Positions 24,339 through 36,663 of a stretch of DNA of 64,000 bases are shown here, piece after piece. Source of the stretch: Halomonas caseinilytica (GTDB lineage: Bacteria; Pseudomonadota; Gammaproteobacteria; Pseudomonadales; Halomonadaceae); NCBI RefSeq assembly GCF_001662305.1, contig NZ_BDEP01000015.1, positions 186,001-250,000 of the forward strand. Reading direction: 5' to 3'. The position numbers were made by a program, and so were the translations under genes. The notes under the pieces were generated by a model. The model worked only from the letters and a program-made list of their open reading frames with translations. It was not told where the DNA came from and did no database searches. The first letter of the stretch is position 1. Each line of letters begins with the position of its first letter.

Positions 24339-25886
24339 TCAGGTCAGGGCCAGCCAGGCTTCGACGAGCCAGCGTCCGCAGCGCTCGATCTCGGCCTCCG
24401 TGGCACCGGCATAGCCAAGCACCAGCCCCGGCTGGCCGGGGGCGCGTAGGTAATAGCCGGAAAGCGGCGATAACCGCAGGCCGGCCTCCTTGCTTCGCCG
24501 GAGCAGCTCGCGTTCCAGATCATGGCTTGCCAGGTAGGCGACCAGGTGCATGCCCGCATGGCCGGACGAGAGTTCTAGCCCGTGTGCCACTGCCGGTGCC
24601 AGTACATGTCGCAGTGCGGCCTGTCGAGTCTGGTAGCACCGGCGCATGCGTGCCACGTGGCGCGCGAAATGGCCTTCGCTGATGAAGTCGGCAAGCGCTG
24701 CCTGGGTGATGTACTGTCCTTCCCGGTGCAGGCGGGCATTGACGCTCCGAAAGGTCGTCACCAGTGACGGCGGCAGTACCAGGTAGCCGAGCCGCAGCCC
24801 GGGATAGAGAACCTTGCTGAAGGTGCCGACATAGATCACCGGCGCGTTGTCCATCAGTCCCTGGAGCGAGGCGATCGGCGCGCTGGTGTAGCGAAATTCG
24901 CTGTCGTAGTCGTCCTCGATGATCCAGGCGCCATGCTGCTGGGCAAGTCCCAGCAGCGCCGTGCGTCGCGTCAGCGACAGGGTAGCGCCGCTGGGGTACT
25001 GGTGCGATGGTGTCACGTAGATCAGTTTGGGGGAGGGCACCTCGGGCGGCAGCGATGCGACGTTCAGGCCCTCGTCGTCGACCGGCACCGGCTGCAGTGT
25101 CAGGCCTGCCGCGGTGAAGCAGGCCTGCGCGCCGCCGTAGCCTGGCTCTTCCAGCCAGACGGCATCGCCGACATCGGCGAGCAGGCGCGCGATCAGCTCG
25201 AAGCCCTGCTGCGCGCCCTGGGTGATCAGGATCTGTTCCGGCTGGCAGCGTACCGAGCGCGATAACCGCAGGTAGTCGCACAGTGCCTCGCGCAGTGTCT
25301 CCACACCGCCTTCATTCCGGTAATCGAACCAGTCGATGGGGGCTCGCTGCTGGTGACGGCGCAGCAAGCGTTGCCAGCGCTCGCGAGGAAAACGATCCAG
25401 TGCCGGCACACCCGGAGCGAAGGCCGTATGCCGCGCGCTGGGAGGCGTCGCGAAGTCGAGGAGGCGTTCGCCGCGATGCGAGAGCGTCGCAGGTGGCGTC
25501 GGCGGGACATCGAGGGGCGTCTGCGGGTCCCACTGCCAGTCGGCCACGAAGACGCCGGCACCGGGACGCGACACCAGAAAGCCTTCGGCGGCGAGGCGGT
25601 CGACCGCGCTCAGCACCGTGTTGCGCCCAATGCCGAGCTCGGCCGCCAGTTGCCGGGACGAGGGCAGGGCACTCCCCGCAGGGAGCCGGCCCTGCTGGAT
25701 GCCGCCGCGCAGGGCGTCGTAAAGGCGCTGGCCGAGCGTGCGGGCATCCGGCTCGGCCAGTTGAAGATTCAGTGCCTCCTGAATCCAGAGGCGGTGGGCA
25801 TTCGGATCAGCCACTGGTTCCCCATGTATCGGCCAAACTGGTTCTTCTTGGGGAACCATTATGTCGTCAGACTGAGGCTTCGTCAT
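24339..25886 (-). CDS. MocR-type regulator (GntR helix-turn-helix fused to aminotransferase-like domain)
   Basis: 515 residues. A GntR winged helix comes first ('RTLGQRLYDALRGGIQQGRL', 'SALPSSRQLAAELGIGRNTV'). A fold-type I PLP domain follows, with the Schiff-base lysine in 'IYVGTFSKVLYPGLRLGYL' near residue 357. MocR proteins sense PLP plus an amine or amino acid and control transport, GABA, taurine, polyamine or vitamin B6 genes. The start is uncertain: ATG at 25886 leaves only 20 bases before the divergent acetyltransferase, and ATG at 25859 is equally possible. A large inverted repeat covers this start region. Divergent from two GNAT genes and a PaiB-like gene, its likely targets. Confidence 0.9.
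   Translation of the reverse strand: MTKPQSDDIMVPQEEPVWPIHGEPVADPNAHRLWIQEALNLQLAEPDARTLGQRLYDALRGGIQQGRLPAGSALPSSRQLAAELGIGRNTVLSAVDRLAAEGFLVSRPGAGVFVADWQWDPQTPLDVPPTPPATLSHRGERLLDFATPPSARHTAFAPGVPALDRFPRERWQRLLRRHQQRAPIDWFDYRNEGGVETLREALCDYLRLSRSVRCQPEQILITQGAQQGFELIARLLADVGDAVWLEEPGYGGAQACFTAAGLTLQPVPVDDEGLNVASLPPEVPSPKLIYVTPSHQYPSGATLSLTRRTALLGLAQQHGAWIIEDDYDSEFRYTSAPIASLQGLMDNAPVIYVGTFSKVLYPGLRLGYLVLPPSLVTTFRSVNARLHREGQYITQAALADFISEGHFARHVARMRRCYQTRQAALRHVLAPAVAHGLELSSGHAGMHLVAYLASHDLERELLRRSKEAGLRLSPLSGYYLRAPGQPGLVLGYAGATEAEIERCGRWLVEAWLALT
25813..25858. promoter_or_regulatory. inverted and direct repeats at the MocR start (candidate operator)
   Basis: TGGTTCCCCA (25815-25824) is repeated as its exact reverse complement TGGGGAACCA (25849-25858), with 24 bases between. 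ACTGGTTC also occurs as a direct repeat at 25813 and 25837. MocR proteins typically bind direct repeats with an added half-site. The position overlaps the first codons of the MocR gene as annotated, so it would suit autorepression together with control of the divergent genes. Confidence 0.55.
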
Positions 25887-29311: not shown

Positions 29312-29340
29312 AAAGGCCACCCTCGGGTGGCCTTTTCTTG
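29312..29340 (+). terminator. rho-independent terminator of osmC
   Basis: AAAGGCCACCC (29312-29322) pairs with GGGTGGCCTTT (29325-29335), followed by tcttg. The stem closes on a CTCG tetraloop. Confidence 0.92.
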
Positions 29341-29369: not shown

Positions 29370-30038
29370 TCATGACCGGCGGGCGGCGTCGACCAGGGCG
29401 CGGATCAGGCGTTGCTGGGGGCGGTTGAAGATCAGCCACTCAGGGTGCCATTGCACGCCGATCAGAAAATCGTGATGGCGGGATTCGATACCCTGGACCA
29501 GGCCGTCACGGTCACGGGCGACGATCTCGATGCCGTCGCCGGCGCGCTGCACCGCCTGGTGATGGAGGCTGTTGATGCGACACCAGGTGACCCTGAGAAT
29601 CCGGTTGAGCTGGCTGTCGCCGACGATGTCCACGGTCTTGCGGGGTAGCACGGTGCGTCGGGGCTTCAGGCCCTCGTGGGTCGTGTAGATATCGGGGTCC
29701 AGGGTACCGCCCAGGTGCACGTTGATCAGCTGGGCGCCGCGGCAGATGCCGAGCACTGGGATGCCACCGGGAATGAAGCGTTCGAGCAGTTGCAGTTCGA
29801 GATCGTCGCGTTCGGGATCGACGCGTACATCGAGATGCATTTCGGCGCCGTAGAGATGCGCCTGGATATCATCGCCGCCGCCGATGATCAGCCCGTCGAG
29901 ATGGCGGGGGACAGGGCGTGATGGCGAGAGTCGCAGTGGCCGTCCTCCGTGACGCCGGACGGCGAGCCAGTCGAACCACCAGGCAATGCGACTCTTGCGG
30001 TCGGAGGTGGTGATGCCGATCAATGGACGCCTGACCAT
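29370..30038 (-). CDS. class I glutamine amidotransferase-like gamma-glutamyl hydrolase (peptidase C26)
   Basis: 222 residues. The nucleophile is C99 in 'VLGICRGAQLINVHLGGTLD' and the His-Glu pair is in 'IGVQWHPEWLIF'. 'LDGLIIGGGDDI' is the oxyanion-side loop. This is the gamma-glutamyl-gamma-aminobutyrate hydrolase (PuuD-like) family, which cleaves gamma-glutamyl amide bonds. The start codon overlaps the amidoligase stop (TGATG), so the two are almost surely made together: one forms an amide bond, the other can break one. Shorter than PuuD (254). No other puu gene is present. Confidence 0.88.
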   Translation of the reverse strand: MVRRPLIGITTSDRKSRIAWWFDWLAVRRHGGRPLRLSPSRPVPRHLDGLIIGGGDDIQAHLYGAEMHLDVRVDPERDDLELQLLERFIPGGIPVLGICRGAQLINVHLGGTLDPDIYTTHEGLKPRRTVLPRKTVDIVGDSQLNRILRVTWCRINSLHHQAVQRAGDGIEIVARDRDGLVQGIESRHHDFLIGVQWHPEWLIFNRPQQRLIRALVDAARRS

Positions 30039-31030
30039 CAGTATCCCAGCCTCCGGCGCAGGGCGAACCAGTAACGGCGCGGCCAGGCGGGACGATGGCG
30101 CGCGAGATACTGGGCACTGCGCTCGGCCAGGGTGTCCGGGGCGGCGGCCAGCTTCTCGACCTCCAGCCAGCGGTTCCACTCCAGGCTGGCGCCCCAGTCA
30201 GCCTCGGAGAGTTGGGCGTTGGGCAGACGATAGTGGTAGGTCGGGCGAGCCTGAACGAGATGGTCGCTCAAGAGTTCATGAGGATGCGTCGGGTCGAGAT
30301 AGGCGAACAGCGGTAACAGGTCGAGTTCCCGGTTACGGGTCGGGTTGTGCTCCAGATAATCGTCGATCAGCGTCCGCAGGTCCGGCTGGTAGTCCGGGTC
30401 CAGCACCTTGAGTGCGTAGGTCCGCGAGAAGGGGTTGGCGTGTGGCAGGACCTCCCGGGTGATATCGACGTGAATCTGTTCGCGTAGCCAGCGTGCCGTG
30501 AGCAGATAGGCCCGCAGGCAAGCCAGGACGTCGTCGACTTCCAGGCTGGGAGCCTCGGGATTGAGATGCAGGCCGAAACCATAGAGCAGGCTGGCGTCGG
30601 TGCCCTTGGCGCCATGACGACGCAAGGCATCGAACAGGGTGTCGAGGTCGTCGAGCTCGTTCCAGGGCACCGGCGGGCAGACGATCTCGGTGGGAACCAG
30701 GCCGGTGACCACGTCACCGATCAGCTCGCGGGTGCGGGCATGAAAGTCCTGACGCATTCGCTCCCACTCGCTGTCACGATAGGCCTCGGTATCGAGCCGC
30801 TGGTGATCCGGATGAGCGTACTGGGTGTCCAGCTCGATGCCGAAGTCGCCCCAGCGGGTATTCCTGACCTTGAGCCGATGCGCGCTGATCGCTTCGAGAT
30901 CACCGCCGAACAGGGTCTGGACTAGGTGAGCCGTTTCCTTCGGCGGCAGGCCGGCGAACTCGATCTCGACACCGACTCGGCGAGTCTGGCCGTCATCGTT
31001 ATCGGGGATGGGTGGCGGTTGCGGCGTCAT
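30038..31030 (-). CDS. amidoligase family protein (putative COOH-NH2 ligase)
   Basis: 330 residues of the amidoligase_2 family, relatives of glutamine synthetase and gamma-glutamylcysteine synthetase. Family features are 'RRVGVEIEFAGLPPKETAHL' with E22 and E24 as likely Mg-ATP ligands, 'WGDFGIELDTQYAH', 'EIVCPPVP' and 'LLYGFGLHLNPEAPSLEVDD'. The predicted reaction is ATP-dependent amide formation between a carboxylate and an amine. To my knowledge no substrate is established for the family. Its coupling to a gamma-glutamyl hydrolase suggests a gamma-glutamyl product. caggatgccgtc precedes the ATG. Confidence 0.88.
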   Translation of the reverse strand: MTPQPPPIPDNDDGQTRRVGVEIEFAGLPPKETAHLVQTLFGGDLEAISAHRLKVRNTRWGDFGIELDTQYAHPDHQRLDTEAYRDSEWERMRQDFHARTRELIGDVVTGLVPTEIVCPPVPWNELDDLDTLFDALRRHGAKGTDASLLYGFGLHLNPEAPSLEVDDVLACLRAYLLTARWLREQIHVDITREVLPHANPFSRTYALKVLDPDYQPDLRTLIDDYLEHNPTRNRELDLLPLFAYLDPTHPHELLSDHLVQARPTYHYRLPNAQLSEADWGASLEWNRWLEVEKLAAAPDTLAERSAQYLARHRPAWPRRYWFALRRRLGY

Positions 31031-31131
31031 GACGGCATCCTGTTGTCAGATTTCGGCAGCCTAACATACGTCTGAACCTCTTTATGTCAGGATATGCCGT
31101 TATACCATGACTCTCTGGATGGAGACCGACG

Positions 31132-33441
31132 TTGCTCATCGTGCATCGCTTCTCGATGGTCCTGCGTGGCCTGTTGACGCTGCTTTTGTTGATGCTGCCG
31201 CTGTTCGTGGCGGCGCAGCCCTCGCCATTGTCGAGTCTGGCGAATGCCAAGCAGTCGGAGAATCATGATCCCCAGGCGTTCCAGGCCTCGCTGGACGAGG
31301 TCATTTCCACCCTGCAGGACGACACCAAGCGACAGGAACTGCTGGAGAGCCTGGAGGCGTTGCGCCAGGCCAATCAACCGGCGGCCGAGCAGAATGGCAT
31401 CACCTCCCAGCAGGGCCTGCTGGGGGCGCTCGCCGACACCTTCAATGAGTTGGGAAAGCAGGCCGAGGCGGGCCGATCGCCTCTGGATGGCTGGCGACTC
31501 CAGTTGAGCGAAGGGTGGCGAGACCTTTCCGAGCTGGTGGTACAGACCGGCAATGCCGAGCTGGCGCGCTTCGTCATCGAACTGACCGTGCTGGTGGCGA
31601 TCTGGGGCGGCCTGCTGGTGATCTTCATTGCCCTGGGGCGGATGCTGGCCGGGCGTCGTGGCTGGCCATTGGACCTGCCGCGCGAACCCAAGGCGCATCT
31701 GCTCGCGATCCATTTCCTGCGGCGCATGCTGCCCTGGGCCTTGGCCTTCGCGTTGACGATGGGCATCGCGCAACTGGTGCCGAGCAGTGCCGGGCGTACG
31801 GGCGCCCTGGTCATTGCTTATGTCGCGCTGTGTGGTCGGACCCTGGCGGTGGTGGTGGAGTCGGTCATCGCGGTGTTCACGCGCGGGCATCGTTTCGTCG
31901 CCGTGCGGATCCTGCAGCATCAGAGCCTGCGGCCGCTGTTCATGATCGGCGCCTTGATTGCCCTGGGCGATGCCCTCAATTCCTCGCGGCTCACCGAACT
32001 CATCGGCCTCGATCTGGCCAGCCTGTGCTCGGTGCTGGCCAATACCCTGGCGGCCGTGTTGAGTGGACGTTTCATCCTGCGGTTCAAGCGTCCCATCAAG
32101 CACCTGATACGCAATCGGCCCTACTCTCATCGGCGCGAGAAGGGTAGCTCTTCGGAGGTGATCCGGGTGGTGGGCGGCCTCTGGCATGTGCCGGCGCTGC
32201 TGCTGGTGGGTGGTTCGCTGCTGGCGATCTTCGTCACCGGTGGAGATGTCGGTACGGCGCTGGCGCGTTCGATCATTTCCGCCGCCCTGCTGGTGCTGAC
32301 GCTGGTCGTGGCGGGGCTGTTGCGTCGGCATGCCGAGCGGCGCTCGAAGCGCCGGCGCCAGAGCGAGTATCGGCGTCGGCTCGAGCGCTTCGGCTATGCG
32401 CTGGGCCATGCCCTGGCCTGGTTTGCCTTCGCCGAGCTGTCGCTGCAGGTATGGGGCGCTTCCTTGATCGGCATTGGCACCCAAGGGGTGGCCAGCGTGC
32501 GCATCGGCCAGGCGCTGCTGGGTATCGGCTTCACCATTCTGCTGGCCTGGCTGGTGTGGATCTTCGCCGATACGGCGATCCAGCGCGCCTTGGTGTCGTC
32601 GGCCCGCTCCCGTGGGCGTCGGGTCAATCAGGCGCGCGCCCAGACCATCACGCCGATGATCCGCAACGTCATCTTCGCCACCATCGTGATCATTGCCGCG
32701 ATCGTCGGGCTTGCCAATCTGGGCGTCAACGTCACGCCGCTGCTGGCGGGTGCCGGTGTGATCGGCCTGGCCATCGGCTTCGGTGCCCAGACCCTGGTGC
32801 AGGATTTGATCACCGGCATCTTCATCCTCATCGAGGACTCCCTGGCGGTGGACGACTTCGTGAAGATCAATGGCCACATGGGCACCGTCGAGGGGCTGAC
32901 CCTGCGCACCGTGAGGCTGCGTGATCTGGATGGCATCGTGCACATCATCACCTTCAGCCGTATCGACTCGATCCATAACATGTCGCGCCAGTTCGGCATC
33001 GCCCTGATGAAGATCCGCATTCCCTACGACATGAAGATCGACGATGCCATCACGTTGATGCACGAAACCGCCCGGGCGTTGCGACAGGATCCGATGATGC
33101 GCCACCACATCTGGTCGCCGCTGGAGATGCAGGGCATCCATGCGTTCGAGGATGGTTGTCCGATCCTGCGCATGCGCTTTCGCACCGCGCCCGAGATGCA
33201 GTGGGATGTGGCTCGGGCCTTCAATCTGCTGCTCAAGCAGCGCATGGAAGAGCTGGAGATCGATCTTGGCGTGCCGCGCCTCAGCGTCAGCATGGAAGGG
33301 CGTGGCGGTGGCCGGCTCGACGGCAGCAGCGAGCGGGGCGACGAACGGGATGCATCAGGCCGCGATCCCGGTGAGGCGGGTATCGCCGATCCGACCGGCG
33401 CGACCAGTGCCCGTGGCGCCTCGCCGGATCCCGGCACCTGA
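31132..33441 (+). CDS. large mechanosensitive channel, MscS superfamily (YbiO-like)
   Basis: 769 residues from a TTG start seven bases after ggag; no in-frame ATG is nearer than codon 9. A signal peptide ('LLTLLLLMLPLFVAAQPS') leads into a periplasmic helical part. About ten membrane segments follow, then the MscS core: pore helix 'GVIGLAIGFGAQTLVQDLIT' and the beta domain 'SLAVDDFVKINGHMGTVEGL'. It releases solutes on hypo-osmotic shock, apt for a halophile that stores ectoine-type solutes. The C-terminal ~50 residues are charged and low-complexity. Divergent from the amidoligase. Confidence 0.9.
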   Translation: MLIVHRFSMVLRGLLTLLLLMLPLFVAAQPSPLSSLANAKQSENHDPQAFQASLDEVISTLQDDTKRQELLESLEALRQANQPAAEQNGITSQQGLLGALADTFNELGKQAEAGRSPLDGWRLQLSEGWRDLSELVVQTGNAELARFVIELTVLVAIWGGLLVIFIALGRMLAGRRGWPLDLPREPKAHLLAIHFLRRMLPWALAFALTMGIAQLVPSSAGRTGALVIAYVALCGRTLAVVVESVIAVFTRGHRFVAVRILQHQSLRPLFMIGALIALGDALNSSRLTELIGLDLASLCSVLANTLAAVLSGRFILRFKRPIKHLIRNRPYSHRREKGSSSEVIRVVGGLWHVPALLLVGGSLLAIFVTGGDVGTALARSIISAALLVLTLVVAGLLRRHAERRSKRRRQSEYRRRLERFGYALGHALAWFAFAELSLQVWGASLIGIGTQGVASVRIGQALLGIGFTILLAWLVWIFADTAIQRALVSSARSRGRRVNQARAQTITPMIRNVIFATIVIIAAIVGLANLGVNVTPLLAGAGVIGLAIGFGAQTLVQDLITGIFILIEDSLAVDDFVKINGHMGTVEGLTLRTVRLRDLDGIVHIITFSRIDSIHNMSRQFGIALMKIRIPYDMKIDDAITLMHETARALRQDPMMRHHIWSPLEMQGIHAFEDGCPILRMRFRTAPEMQWDVARAFNLLLKQRMEELEIDLGVPRLSVSMEGRGGGRLDGSSERGDERDASGRDPGEAGIADPTGATSARGASPDPGT

Positions 33442-33691: not shown

Positions 33692-34471
33692 ATGACGATC
33701 AAGGTTACGGTCTGGGGCGAGAACGTCCACGAACAGACCAACGAGGTGGTAGCGCGCATCTATCCCGAGGGTATGCATGCCTGCATCGCCGCCGGGCTCA
33801 ACGAGGACCCGCAGATCGAGGCCCGCGCCGTCACTCTGCAGGACCCCGAGCAGGGGCTGCCCGAAGCGCTGCTCGAGGATACCGACGTGTTGCTGTGGTG
33901 GGGGCATGCCGCCCATGGCGACGTTCGTGACGAGACCGTCGACCGGGTTCAGGCCCGGGTGCTGCAAGGCATGGGGCTGCTGGTGCTGCACTCTGCCCAC
34001 TACTCCAGGATCTTCAAGCGCCTGATGGGTACCACCTGTTCGCTGAAGTGGCGCGAGGCCGGCGAGCGTGAGCGGCTGTGGGTCGTCAATCCCGGCCATC
34101 CGATCGTCCAGGGCCTGGGCAACTACCTCGAGCTGCCGCATAGCGAGATGTACGGCGAGCCCTTCGCGGTGCCCAACCCCGACGAGGTCGTGTTCATCAG
34201 CGCCTTCGAAGGCGGTGAGGTGTTCCGCTCCGGACTCACCTATAAGCGCGGCAACGGCAAGATCTTCTACTTCGGCCCCGGTCACGAGACCTATCCGATC
34301 TACTACGACGAGCAGGTGCGCCGGGTCCTCAAGAACGGCGTGAAGTGGGCGTGCCCGGAAGGCTCGCGTTGGATCGACAGCTGCCCCAACGTGCCGCCCG
34401 ACCAGGCGCCGAACCCGGTGGAAGTGAAGGGCGAAGGTCTGCACAAACCGGGTGAGGAGGGCTTCAAGTGA
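33692..34471 (+). CDS. ThuA domain-containing protein
   Basis: 259 residues with the ThuA fold, related to class I amidotransferases: '[20 protein letters not shown]', '[16 protein letters not shown]', '[19 protein letters not shown]' and '[20 protein letters not shown]'. ThuA was named from trehalose/sucrose use in rhizobia, where it works with the dehydrogenase ThuB on 3-keto sugars. Here too it precedes a Gfo/Idh/MocA oxidoreductase, overlapping by 1 base. No sugar transporter is next to it, so the substrate is open. Strong ribosome-binding site aggagg. Confidence 0.9.
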
Positions 34472-35541
34472 TGCGTCTGGCGATCATCGGCGCCGGCGGC
34501 ATGGCCGGCCAGCACGCCCAGCGGTTCCAGGAGATCGCGGATGTCGAGGTCGTGGCGGTCTGCGACCTGGATGGCGACAAGGCACGTACCTTTGCCGCCG
34601 AGCACGGCATTTCCGCGGTCTACACCGATCTCGAGGCCATGCTGGCCCGCGACGACATCGATGCGGTGAGCAATGTCACCCCGGACGGGGTGCACAAGGC
34701 GACAACACTTGCCGCCATCGCCGCCGGCAAGCATGTCCTCTGCGAGAAGCCCCTGGCCACCAATGCCACCGATGCTGACGAGATGGCGGCGGCGGCCCGC
34801 GAAGCCGGCGTGATCAACATGGTCAACCTTAGCTATCGCGACGCCCCGGCGATCCAGCTCGCCCGCGAGCTGGTCGCCGAAGGCCGGCTGGGGCGGGTGA
34901 TGCACGTTGATGCCAGCTATCGCCAGAGTTGGCTGGTGAGCGATGCCTGGGGGCGCTGGGATCAGGACAGCCAGTGGCTGTGGCGCCTCTCCGAAGCGCA
35001 CGGCAGCAAGGGGGTACTGGGCGACGTGGGAGTGCACATCCTCGACTTCGCCAGCTTCCCGGTAGGCGACATCGCCGCGGTGACCTGCCGCCTAAAGTGC
35101 TTCGACAAGGCTCCGGACAATTGCATCGGCGAGTATTCCCTCGACGCCAACGACAGCGCTTTGATGCAGGTGGAATTCGCCGGTGGCGCGCTGGGCACCG
35201 TTCAGGCCACCCGTTGGGCCACCGGCCATCACAACTCGCTGACGCTCTCGGTCCATGGCGATCGCGGTGCGCTGCGCGTCGACCTCGATGCGGCGCGTGA
35301 CCGGGTGCAGGTGTGCCTAGGCGAGGACGTCCATCCTGCGCGTTGGGTCGACATCACGGCGCCGCCTACGCCGAGCATCTATCAGCGTTTCGTCGATAGT
35401 ATCGAAAGCGGCGTCAACGACCAGCCCGACTTCGCCCGCGGCGCGGTCTTGCAGCGTGTGCTGGATGCCTGTTTCGACTCCGACGCTCGAGGCGGCATCC
35501 TGCACCTGGAGGCGCAGGCCCTCCAGAGCCCGTCTGCCTGA
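34471..35541 (+). CDS. Gfo/Idh/MocA family oxidoreductase
   Basis: 356 residues. N-terminal Rossmann domain 'LAIIGAGGMAGQHAQRFQEI' (NAD(P) binding) and the family motif 'HVLCEKPLATNATDADEMAA'; the C-terminal part is the substrate-binding sheet domain with 'GSKGVLGDVGVHILDFASFP'. These enzymes oxidise or reduce sugar or inositol carbons. The partner ThuA gene and the LacI gene behind make a sugar-response cluster. An in-frame GTG one codon earlier is a possible start; ATG at 34471 shares its A with the ThuA stop, and gaggagg precedes both. Confidence 0.92.
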   Translation: MRLAIIGAGGMAGQHAQRFQEIADVEVVAVCDLDGDKARTFAAEHGISAVYTDLEAMLARDDIDAVSNVTPDGVHKATTLAAIAAGKHVLCEKPLATNATDADEMAAAAREAGVINMVNLSYRDAPAIQLARELVAEGRLGRVMHVDASYRQSWLVSDAWGRWDQDSQWLWRLSEAHGSKGVLGDVGVHILDFASFPVGDIAAVTCRLKCFDKAPDNCIGEYSLDANDSALMQVEFAGGALGTVQATRWATGHHNSLTLSVHGDRGALRVDLDAARDRVQVCLGEDVHPARWVDITAPPTPSIYQRFVDSIESGVNDQPDFARGAVLQRVLDACFDSDARGGILHLEAQALQSPSA

Positions 35542-35691
35542 GCCGTATCGGCCCGCTGATATTCATCATGGCCCGCCATGCCGGGGCGGTGAGTGAGGCG
35601 CTGTCGCAGCGATTCGTCCGATCGGGCACAATCGGTGGCCGCAGAGAATGGCGGTTGGCGCGAGGCCGGCCGCCCGGTGACGAGGCAGGCG

Positions 35692-36663
35692 ATGAGCAGA
35701 CAACCGTCGAAGACGGCCAACATTCGGGAAATCGCACGGCGGGCGGGCGTCTCCATCGCCTCGGTCAGCCGCGCGCTCAACGACAAGCCAGGCATCAGCG
35801 AGGCGTTGCGCGAGCGTATCCTCACCATCAGCCGCGACGTCGAGTACCGGCCCAGTGCCGCTGCCCGCCAGTTGATCAGCGGCAAGGCCGCGGTGGTGGG
35901 TATCTCGCTGGGGCGTCGCGACTTCGAGTTGCGGCCTTACTACATCCTGCTCTACCAGCACCTGACCGTGGCGCTGCACCGCCAGGGCATGGTACCGATC
36001 TTCTTCGCCCACGACCGCACGGCGACCCTGCCCGAACAGGCCGGCGCCGCCATCCTGCTCGGTGAGTTCGCCGACGACCCGCGTCCCGAACTGATGAGGT
36101 CTCACCGCGTGCCCTTCGTGCGCATCGGACTGGCCGGTGAGGGATTCTCGGTGGCGCCGGAGGATCGTCACGGCATCTACCTGGCCACCCGCCACCTGAT
36201 CGAGAAAGGGCGTCGGCGCATCGCCTTCGTCGGCGACGAGCTGACGAGCCCTCACAGCCAGCACCGCCTGGACGGCTATCGCCAGGCGCTCGACGAGGCT
36301 GGCTTCGAGGCCGAACTGATCGACATCCCGCCCAACCTGGACCCGGCCCTGACCGGTTACCGCTGGCTGAGTCGGCGCCTCGATCGGGAGCCACGGGCCT
36401 ATGACGGCCTGGTCTGCGAGACCGACGAGCTTGCCCGGGGCTGTCTGACGGCCCTGGAAGATCATGGCCTGAACGTACCCGGCGAGGTGGCGGTCACCGG
36501 CTTCGACGACCTGCCGACCCTGGCCGAAGGTCTGACCACGGTGCGCCAGGACATCGCCGGTATTGCCGCCATGAGCGTCGACCTGCTGGGAGAGGCCCAG
36601 GCAGGCAAGCCGCCGCGACATGTCTCGATGCCGGTGGAACTGGTGGTTCGCGAGACCGGTTGA
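35692..36663 (+). CDS. LacI-family transcriptional regulator of the ThuA cluster
   Basis: 323 residues from the ATG after gaggcaggcg. The helix-turn-helix and hinge are at 8-60 ('NIREIARRAGVSIASVSRAL', 'EYRPSAAARQLISGKAAVVG'). The effector domain ends with 'VPGEVAVTGFDDLPTLAEGL' and 'PVELVVRETG'. It probably represses the cluster by binding the two palindromes upstream of the ThuA gene, releasing it when a sugar-like ligand binds. It lies 150 bases past the oxidoreductase in the same direction. Confidence 0.93.
   Translation: MSRQPSKTANIREIARRAGVSIASVSRALNDKPGISEALRERILTISRDVEYRPSAAARQLISGKAAVVGISLGRRDFELRPYYILLYQHLTVALHRQGMVPIFFAHDRTATLPEQAGAAILLGEFADDPRPELMRSHRVPFVRIGLAGEGFSVAPEDRHGIYLATRHLIEKGRRRIAFVGDELTSPHSQHRLDGYRQALDEAGFEAELIDIPPNLDPALTGYRWLSRRLDREPRAYDGLVCETDELARGCLTALEDHGLNVPGEVAVTGFDDLPTLAEGLTTVRQDIAGIAAMSVDLLGEAQAGKPPRHVSMPVELVVRETG

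Follow-up and report, generated by a model that had tools for sequence, protein, structure and literature searches.

The window, the 64,000-nucleotide stretch of Halomonas caseinilytica DNA analyzed here, contains two adjoining genes that probably make up a small operon serving a gamma-glutamyl amide cycle. The first (positions 30038 to 31030, minus strand) encodes a 330-amino-acid protein of the Amidoligase_2 family (PF12224), predicted from Pfam, a structure model, and invariant alignment columns to be an ATP-dependent carboxylate-amine ligase with a glutamine synthetase (GS) fold. The second (positions 29370 to 30038, minus strand) encodes a 222-amino-acid Peptidase_C26 protein with the class-I glutamine amidotransferase fold, predicted to be a gamma-glutamyl amide hydrolase on the basis of its PF07722 match, the invariant residues Cys99, His198, and Glu200, and a structure model. 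At the expense of ATP, the amidoligase would activate a carboxylate, glutamate's gamma-carboxylate being the most likely one, and join it to an amine; the C26 hydrolase would open the same type of bond via a gamma-glutamyl-thioester on Cys99, with release of glutamate. The pair may work like PuuA and PuuD, with flux presumably running from synthesis to cleavage, in that glutamate is put on an amine and later removed and the amine is handled, protected, or recycled. The original prediction had proposed such a coupling of a ligase to a gamma-glutamyl hydrolase; the folds, the invariant active-site residues, and the co-occurrence of the two genes support it, and the interpretation as a whole is partly supported, the suggested function in storage, tagging, or detoxification being a hypothesis. 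In the part of the open-licence literature covered, no biochemical study of the substrate of Amidoligase_2 was found, nor any substrate for this pair, which is conserved and whose active sites are intact. The comparative data narrow the question to whether the ligase makes gamma-glutamyl amides that its partner cleaves.

The TGA of the amidoligase gene (30040 to 30038) and the ATG of the hydrolase gene (30038 to 30036) have one base in common (TGATG), just as originally described, and GGAGG is located 11 bases 5' of the hydrolase ATG; the two genes are presumably transcribed as an operon. A TGATG junction of this kind is the exception, since the junctions in 121 loci would permit a 4-base ATGA overlap in 55 cases, a 1-base overlap in 7, and neither in 59. 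According to the Pfam annotation of the window, the pair is flanked upstream by a divergent MscS-type channel gene and downstream by a convergent osmC gene. The gap to the channel gene contains, 5' of the amidoligase gene and on the minus strand, a promoter-like site (CTGACA and TATGTT, 16 bases apart; 31063 to 31090) recognized only by its match to the consensus, the single such site in the scanned stretch, where 0.4 were expected. A terminator-like hairpin with a 10-pair stem (29312 to 29335) lies between the hydrolase stop and osmC; it was scored on the plus strand only and, like the promoter-like site, is a pattern match, the scanned stretch having two such hairpins against 0.9 expected. 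The divergent MscS-type gene (31132 to 33441) was found near the pair in 68 of the 80 named loci, all from Halomonadaceae, and in 5 of the 79 loci outside that set, and its position beside the pair is probably family-level synteny. Elsewhere in the window, a row of genes for ThuA, GFO/IDH/MocA dehydrogenase, and LacI-type regulator proteins (33692 to 36663) resembles a sugar-use cluster, and a MocR-type GntR/aminotransferase fusion regulator is encoded at 24339 to 25886, at a place that does not adjoin the pair.

The amidoligase, a single-copy protein in the window genome, matched PF12224 with 206 bits (cut-off, 22). This was its sole Pfam domain at an E value of 0.01, and the GS catalytic domain Gln-synt_C (PF00120) was not found in it; the window genome has four PF00120 proteins, all encoded on other contigs. 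Its model (pLDDT of 88.8) aligned with glutamine synthetase with a VIA Z of 13.0 over 193 residues at 3.3 Å, and the best 50 structure matches were all members of the GS family, including GmaS. A Foldseek search with the same model reached a best E value of only 0.016, with the plant glutamate-cysteine ligase, YbdK, and the Pup ligase PafA also among the matches, and hhalign revealed no sequence-profile link to four GS-family proteins of the same genome (probability, 0.4%). Since the profile comparison was negative and the Foldseek result weak, the GS fold of the amidoligase, which is a prediction from the model, rests on the structural aligner. A sequence search for relatives of solved structure returned none, the one hit having an E value of 0.79. 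In an alignment of 40 amidoligases, 25 columns were invariant in all of them, including E22, E24, E66, D68, E115, R232, R262, H266, and R268, residues that we assume, by analogy, to have the corresponding roles in the GS active site. A lack of conservation of the active-site acids, which had been named as an observation that would speak against the prediction, was thus not seen. A phage origin of the window amidoligase was also considered and rejected, as it had no match in the phage collection at an E value of 0.001. Among the loci retrieved, L199 (7737 to 8693) encodes a prophage-like, distant amidoligase of another PF12224 subfamily that matches 101 phage records, and a nearby protein looks, by eye, like a class-II amidotransferase.

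The hydrolase matched PF07722 with 155 bits (cut-off, 20.5), and Cys99, His198, and Glu200 were invariant in all 35 hydrolases aligned, His198 corresponding to the position mutated in the SpuA H221N structures. Its best NCBIfam match was the PuuD model NF008471, at 78 bits and hence below the equivalog cut-off of 266, and its score with the gamma-glutamyl-CDP-amidate hydrolase model NF045546 (43 bits) was also below the equivalog cut-off, which is 250. The structure model (pLDDT of 91.3) aligned with Lin1909, PuuD, and SpuA with Z scores of 27.8 to 29.5, versus at most 21.5 with the glutaminase domains of synthetases, and, judged from the model, the protein is nearer to gamma-glutamyl hydrolases than to glutaminase domains. 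This distinction bears on the main rival explanation, in which the C26 protein would be a glutaminase supplying the amidoligase with ammonia, so that a carboxylate is amidated and the two genes together represent a split glutamine-dependent amide synthetase. The fold family does include glutaminase subunits, and the strong gene pairing would suit such a complex, as would the gene table of a LUZ24-like phage, where PF12224 is found near a class-II glutamine amidotransferase (PMC3890496). Structure and profiles both place the partner with the hydrolases and not with the glutaminase domains; ammonia supply is less favored by the modeled structure, and we regard it as unlikely.

The strength of the pairing is apparent from a survey of other genomes, which had been suggested as a check on the original prediction. 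Of the genomes searched, PF12224 was detected in 49 of 194 at the level of the order, in 20 of 369 at that of the class, and in 24 of 398 at that of the phylum, sets that overlap, and its distribution is patchy but recurrent. A hydrolase gene was present near the amidoligase gene on the same strand in 44 of the 49 loci of the order (the window counted), corresponding to 18 of 19 families, in 25 of 28 class and phylum loci, and in 78 of the 80 named Halomonadaceae loci, where both misses were at contig ends; these locus sets also overlap, and related genomes are not independent. The restriction to this strain that would have weakened the prediction is thus not what we found. The 28 class and phylum loci are those left of 31 fetched after L199, L217, and L229, which had no match to the amidoligase profile built here, were dropped before counting, and weak matches of the phylum search in G752 were left out of the locus set. 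L217 (5778 to 8942) has a 1,054-amino-acid open reading frame (ORF), apparently for a multidomain protein, that matches PF12224 weakly (44 bits).

The distribution of the hydrolase clade was determined with a profile built from 35 hydrolases adjoining amidoligases, a genome being counted as positive at a score of 250 bits or more or when, as in G070, a contig end had truncated the copy. The clade was present in 46 of the 49 order genomes with PF12224 versus 1 of the 145 without it. Because the profile was built from linked copies, its presence in amidoligase genomes is in part a result of construction; this profile and that for the YqaA-type protein described below both derive from copies beside amidoligases, and the co-occurrence counts lean towards linkage. 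The informative part is made up of (i) the absence of the clade in the other 144 genomes, (ii) the gap in profile scores, which fall from 253 bits to 176 (the contig-end copy) and then to 161, and (iii) two unlinked copies. The latter belong to two of the five order genomes in which the genes are not adjacent, G098 and G156, which have a clade-type hydrolase elsewhere in the genome, neither copy having been used for building the profile; in the other three, G006, G049, and G074, an amidoligase is present, and the genome profile search found no clade-type hydrolase. In a single order genome, G132, the hydrolase clade occurs in the absence of an amidoligase; the copy there is N-terminally truncated (195 amino acids) and adjoins a YqaA-type gene. 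Taken together, the co-occurrence and neighbor counts rule out chance adjacency of the amidoligase and the hydrolase.

The closest named relatives are Halomonas, the amidoligase being 91% identical at the protein level to that of H. elongata strain 153B. Comparison with five Halomonas species gave dN/dS ratios of 0.10 to 0.20 for the amidoligase and 0.06 to 0.12 for the hydrolase, values that point to purifying selection on both genes, and amidoligase and hydrolase distances were correlated (r = 0.83; 42 loci, uncorrected for species relationships). No fusions of the ligase with the hydrolase, YqaA, or GGACT were found among the ORFs scanned. Two overlapping ORFs in different frames share the amidoligase of L078 (G174), where the hydrolase and YqaA-type genes are open; the split reflects either a frameshift or an assembly error. 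In L058, L059, L146, L152, and others, many of them Vreelandella, a second protein with a weak match to the hydrolase profile (23 to 37 bits) is encoded about 1.0 to 1.5 kb downstream of the pair.

Amidoligases without a neighboring hydrolase also exist. Eleven plasmid records matched the amidoligase, eight of which were opened, an unannotated one being scanned with the profiles built here; the hydrolase was beside the amidoligase in three (Rhodobacteraceae SC52, Qingshengfaniella, and Dinoroseobacter), and the amidoligase occurred without it in five. The same applies to L216, L227, and L228 of the wider loci, L216 being the second of two amidoligase copies in one genome, of which the other (L212) does have the hydrolase. 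Since some amidoligases stand alone, the hydrolase is not indispensable to every member of the family; several solitary amidoligases also argue against a dependence on ammonia delivered by the partner. A further argument is provided by L066 and L067, from a single genus, in which a GGACT/AIG2 (PF06094) cyclotransferase gene precedes the amidoligase gene and no hydrolase follows. GGACT enzymes, another family that cleaves gamma-glutamyl compounds, are not known to donate ammonia, and their appearance in the place of the hydrolase is not what the supply of ammonia by the partner would lead one to expect. Only a single genus shows this swap, and in G156, one of the two genomes concerned, a hydrolase is encoded at another site as well; L047 combines an amidoligase-hydrolase pair with a divergent GGACT gene beside it. 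The hydrolase-like fold and the GGACT stand-in favor a make-and-break pair over ammonia supply. Because the partner is hydrolase-like by fold and residues, and because GGACT takes its place in one genus, the simplest reading is that a gamma-glutamyl amide is made and then opened.

A frequent additional neighbor is a YqaA-type membrane protein of small size (about 145 amino acids), encoded by a third gene in 21 of the 49 order loci, which represent 10 of 19 families, and in 5 of the 28 wider loci. Both neighbors of this type that were tested have a VTT domain, and identity to Escherichia coli YqaA, which we take to belong to the COG1238 DedA subfamily, was 42% over 130 residues. A report on DedA proteins describes the function of this subfamily as little known, suggests uncharged or positively charged lipids as its possible cargo, and states that several Pseudomonas species require it as an essential protein (PMC10127716). 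Close relatives of this neighbor protein (at least 200 bits) occur in 26 order genomes, 23 of them with Amidoligase_2, a count made with a profile derived largely from cassette copies. This neighbor, which adjoins the amidoligase in the 21 order loci, would be in agreement with a pair that edits a macromolecule or the envelope, such that peptidoglycan, a protein, or a lipid headgroup would receive glutamate or a peptide from the amidoligase, to be trimmed by the hydrolase; for phage cassettes with amidoligases, a modification of peptidoglycan has been put forward as a hypothesis in part of one article (PMC5498523). The window genome, however, has no YqaA match in the profile search, yet its pair is intact, and we consider envelope editing quite unlikely. 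In G102, G073, and G155, Halomonadaceae with the pair, the YqaA-type gene is located elsewhere in the genome; given this and its absence from the window genome, the pair does not depend on the YqaA-type protein.

In E. coli K-12 (L235, 2884 to 4941), yqaA directly precedes gshA, at a distance of 72 bases and in the same orientation. gshA encodes a gamma-glutamyl ligase, and the fold of GshA is GS-like, so that the DedA subfamily neighbors two different gamma-glutamyl-type ligases with a GS-like fold. As a general rule, an association of YqaA with gshA was rejected, since the arrangement recurred in only one other YqaA locus (L289) among 60 examined. Another reading, which draws on the suggested lipid transport and on the place of E. 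coli yqaA beside gshA, unites the amidoligase, the hydrolase, and the YqaA-type (COG1238) protein in a single system that would make a gamma-glutamyl amide from an amine or an amine-bearing lipid, move it across the membrane, and dismantle it; we hold this to be very doubtful. If it were true, the COG1238 DedA subfamily would gain a substrate class. The frequent YqaA-type neighbor offers a second handle on a little-understood subfamily of membrane proteins.

PuuA/PuuD of E. coli and SpuA of Pseudomonas serve a gamma-glutamyl polyamine route. The pair might be a dedicated second polyamine route, a functional analog of PuuA/PuuD, and a few neighborhoods would be compatible with this. In L041, a run of potABCD-type genes stops about 36 bases short of the amidoligase; L066 and L067 have a PuuR-like regulator gene upstream with the same orientation (L066, 153 bits; cut-off, 211), and polyamine-type ABC genes lie further upstream on the opposite strand, together with genes whose products resemble, by eye, an aldehyde dehydrogenase and an aminotransferase; and on the SC52 plasmid an aldehyde dehydrogenase gene precedes the amidoligase. 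Such cases are rare, since at least two transport genes were found within the flanks in just 5 of 77 counted loci (L041, L066, L067, L068, and L073) and in 3 of the 80 named loci, often 5 to 9 kb away, these counts being uncorrected for background, and polyamine-type transport operons are common. Moreover, the window genome already has a PuuA/PuuD-like pair, two neighboring divergent genes on contig C21 whose best NCBIfam matches are the PuuA model (231 bits; cut-off, 650) and the PuuD model (216 bits; cut-off, 266), both scores being below cut-off. The original observation that no puu gene accompanies the amidoligase holds for the neighboring genes checked, and it has to be qualified by this pair on another contig and by the polyamine-type transport genes near the pairs of a few relatives. 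A duplicated PuuA/PuuD pair was ruled out, for the ligase by its family (PF12224, with no PF00120) and for the hydrolase by its score with the PuuD model. The envelope and polyamine roles are both weaker rivals than ammonia supply, a polyamine route being the least probable of all the readings considered here.

The probable make-and-break pair can be compared with several known systems. The LUZ24-like and RIO-1-like phage cassettes, which consist of amidoligase, ATP-grasp, GGCT, and amidotransferase genes, are similar in that, in the sections consulted, an amidoligase (PF12224 in UFV-P2) is near glutamine- or gamma-glutamyl-handling enzymes, whereas UFV-P2 differs from the window pair in its class-II amidotransferase and the presence of an ATP-grasp gene (PMC5498523, PMC3890496). 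PuuA/PuuD and SpuA are alike in combining a GS-fold ligase with a C26 hydrolase, the latter of closely similar fold; the window ligase differs in lacking a PF00120 match, and the window hydrolase in its 78 bits against the PuuD cut-off of 266. In butirosin biosynthesis, a gamma-glutamyl protecting group is put on by BtrJ and later removed by BtrG; the addition and removal of gamma-glutamyl would be shared, and the enzymes differ, BtrJ being an ATP-grasp protein and BtrG a cyclotransferase. Closest is the prediction reportedly made by Iyer et al. in 2009 that PF12224 is paired with a glutamine-amidotransferase-like peptidase in proteobacteria and with an Aig2 cyclotransferase in fungi, neighborhoods that, we presume, are those described in the Pfam text for PF12224. 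That neighborhood reportedly has the same ligase family and, in proteobacteria, the same partner family. The coupling of amidoligase and hydrolase is thus not new in itself, and the window pair adds to a pairing already described. What this analysis adds are the co-occurrence counts, the unlinked retained partners and decayed cases, the GGACT substitution in bacteria, and the YqaA-type third gene, some of which may overlap with the content of that paper or be in print already.
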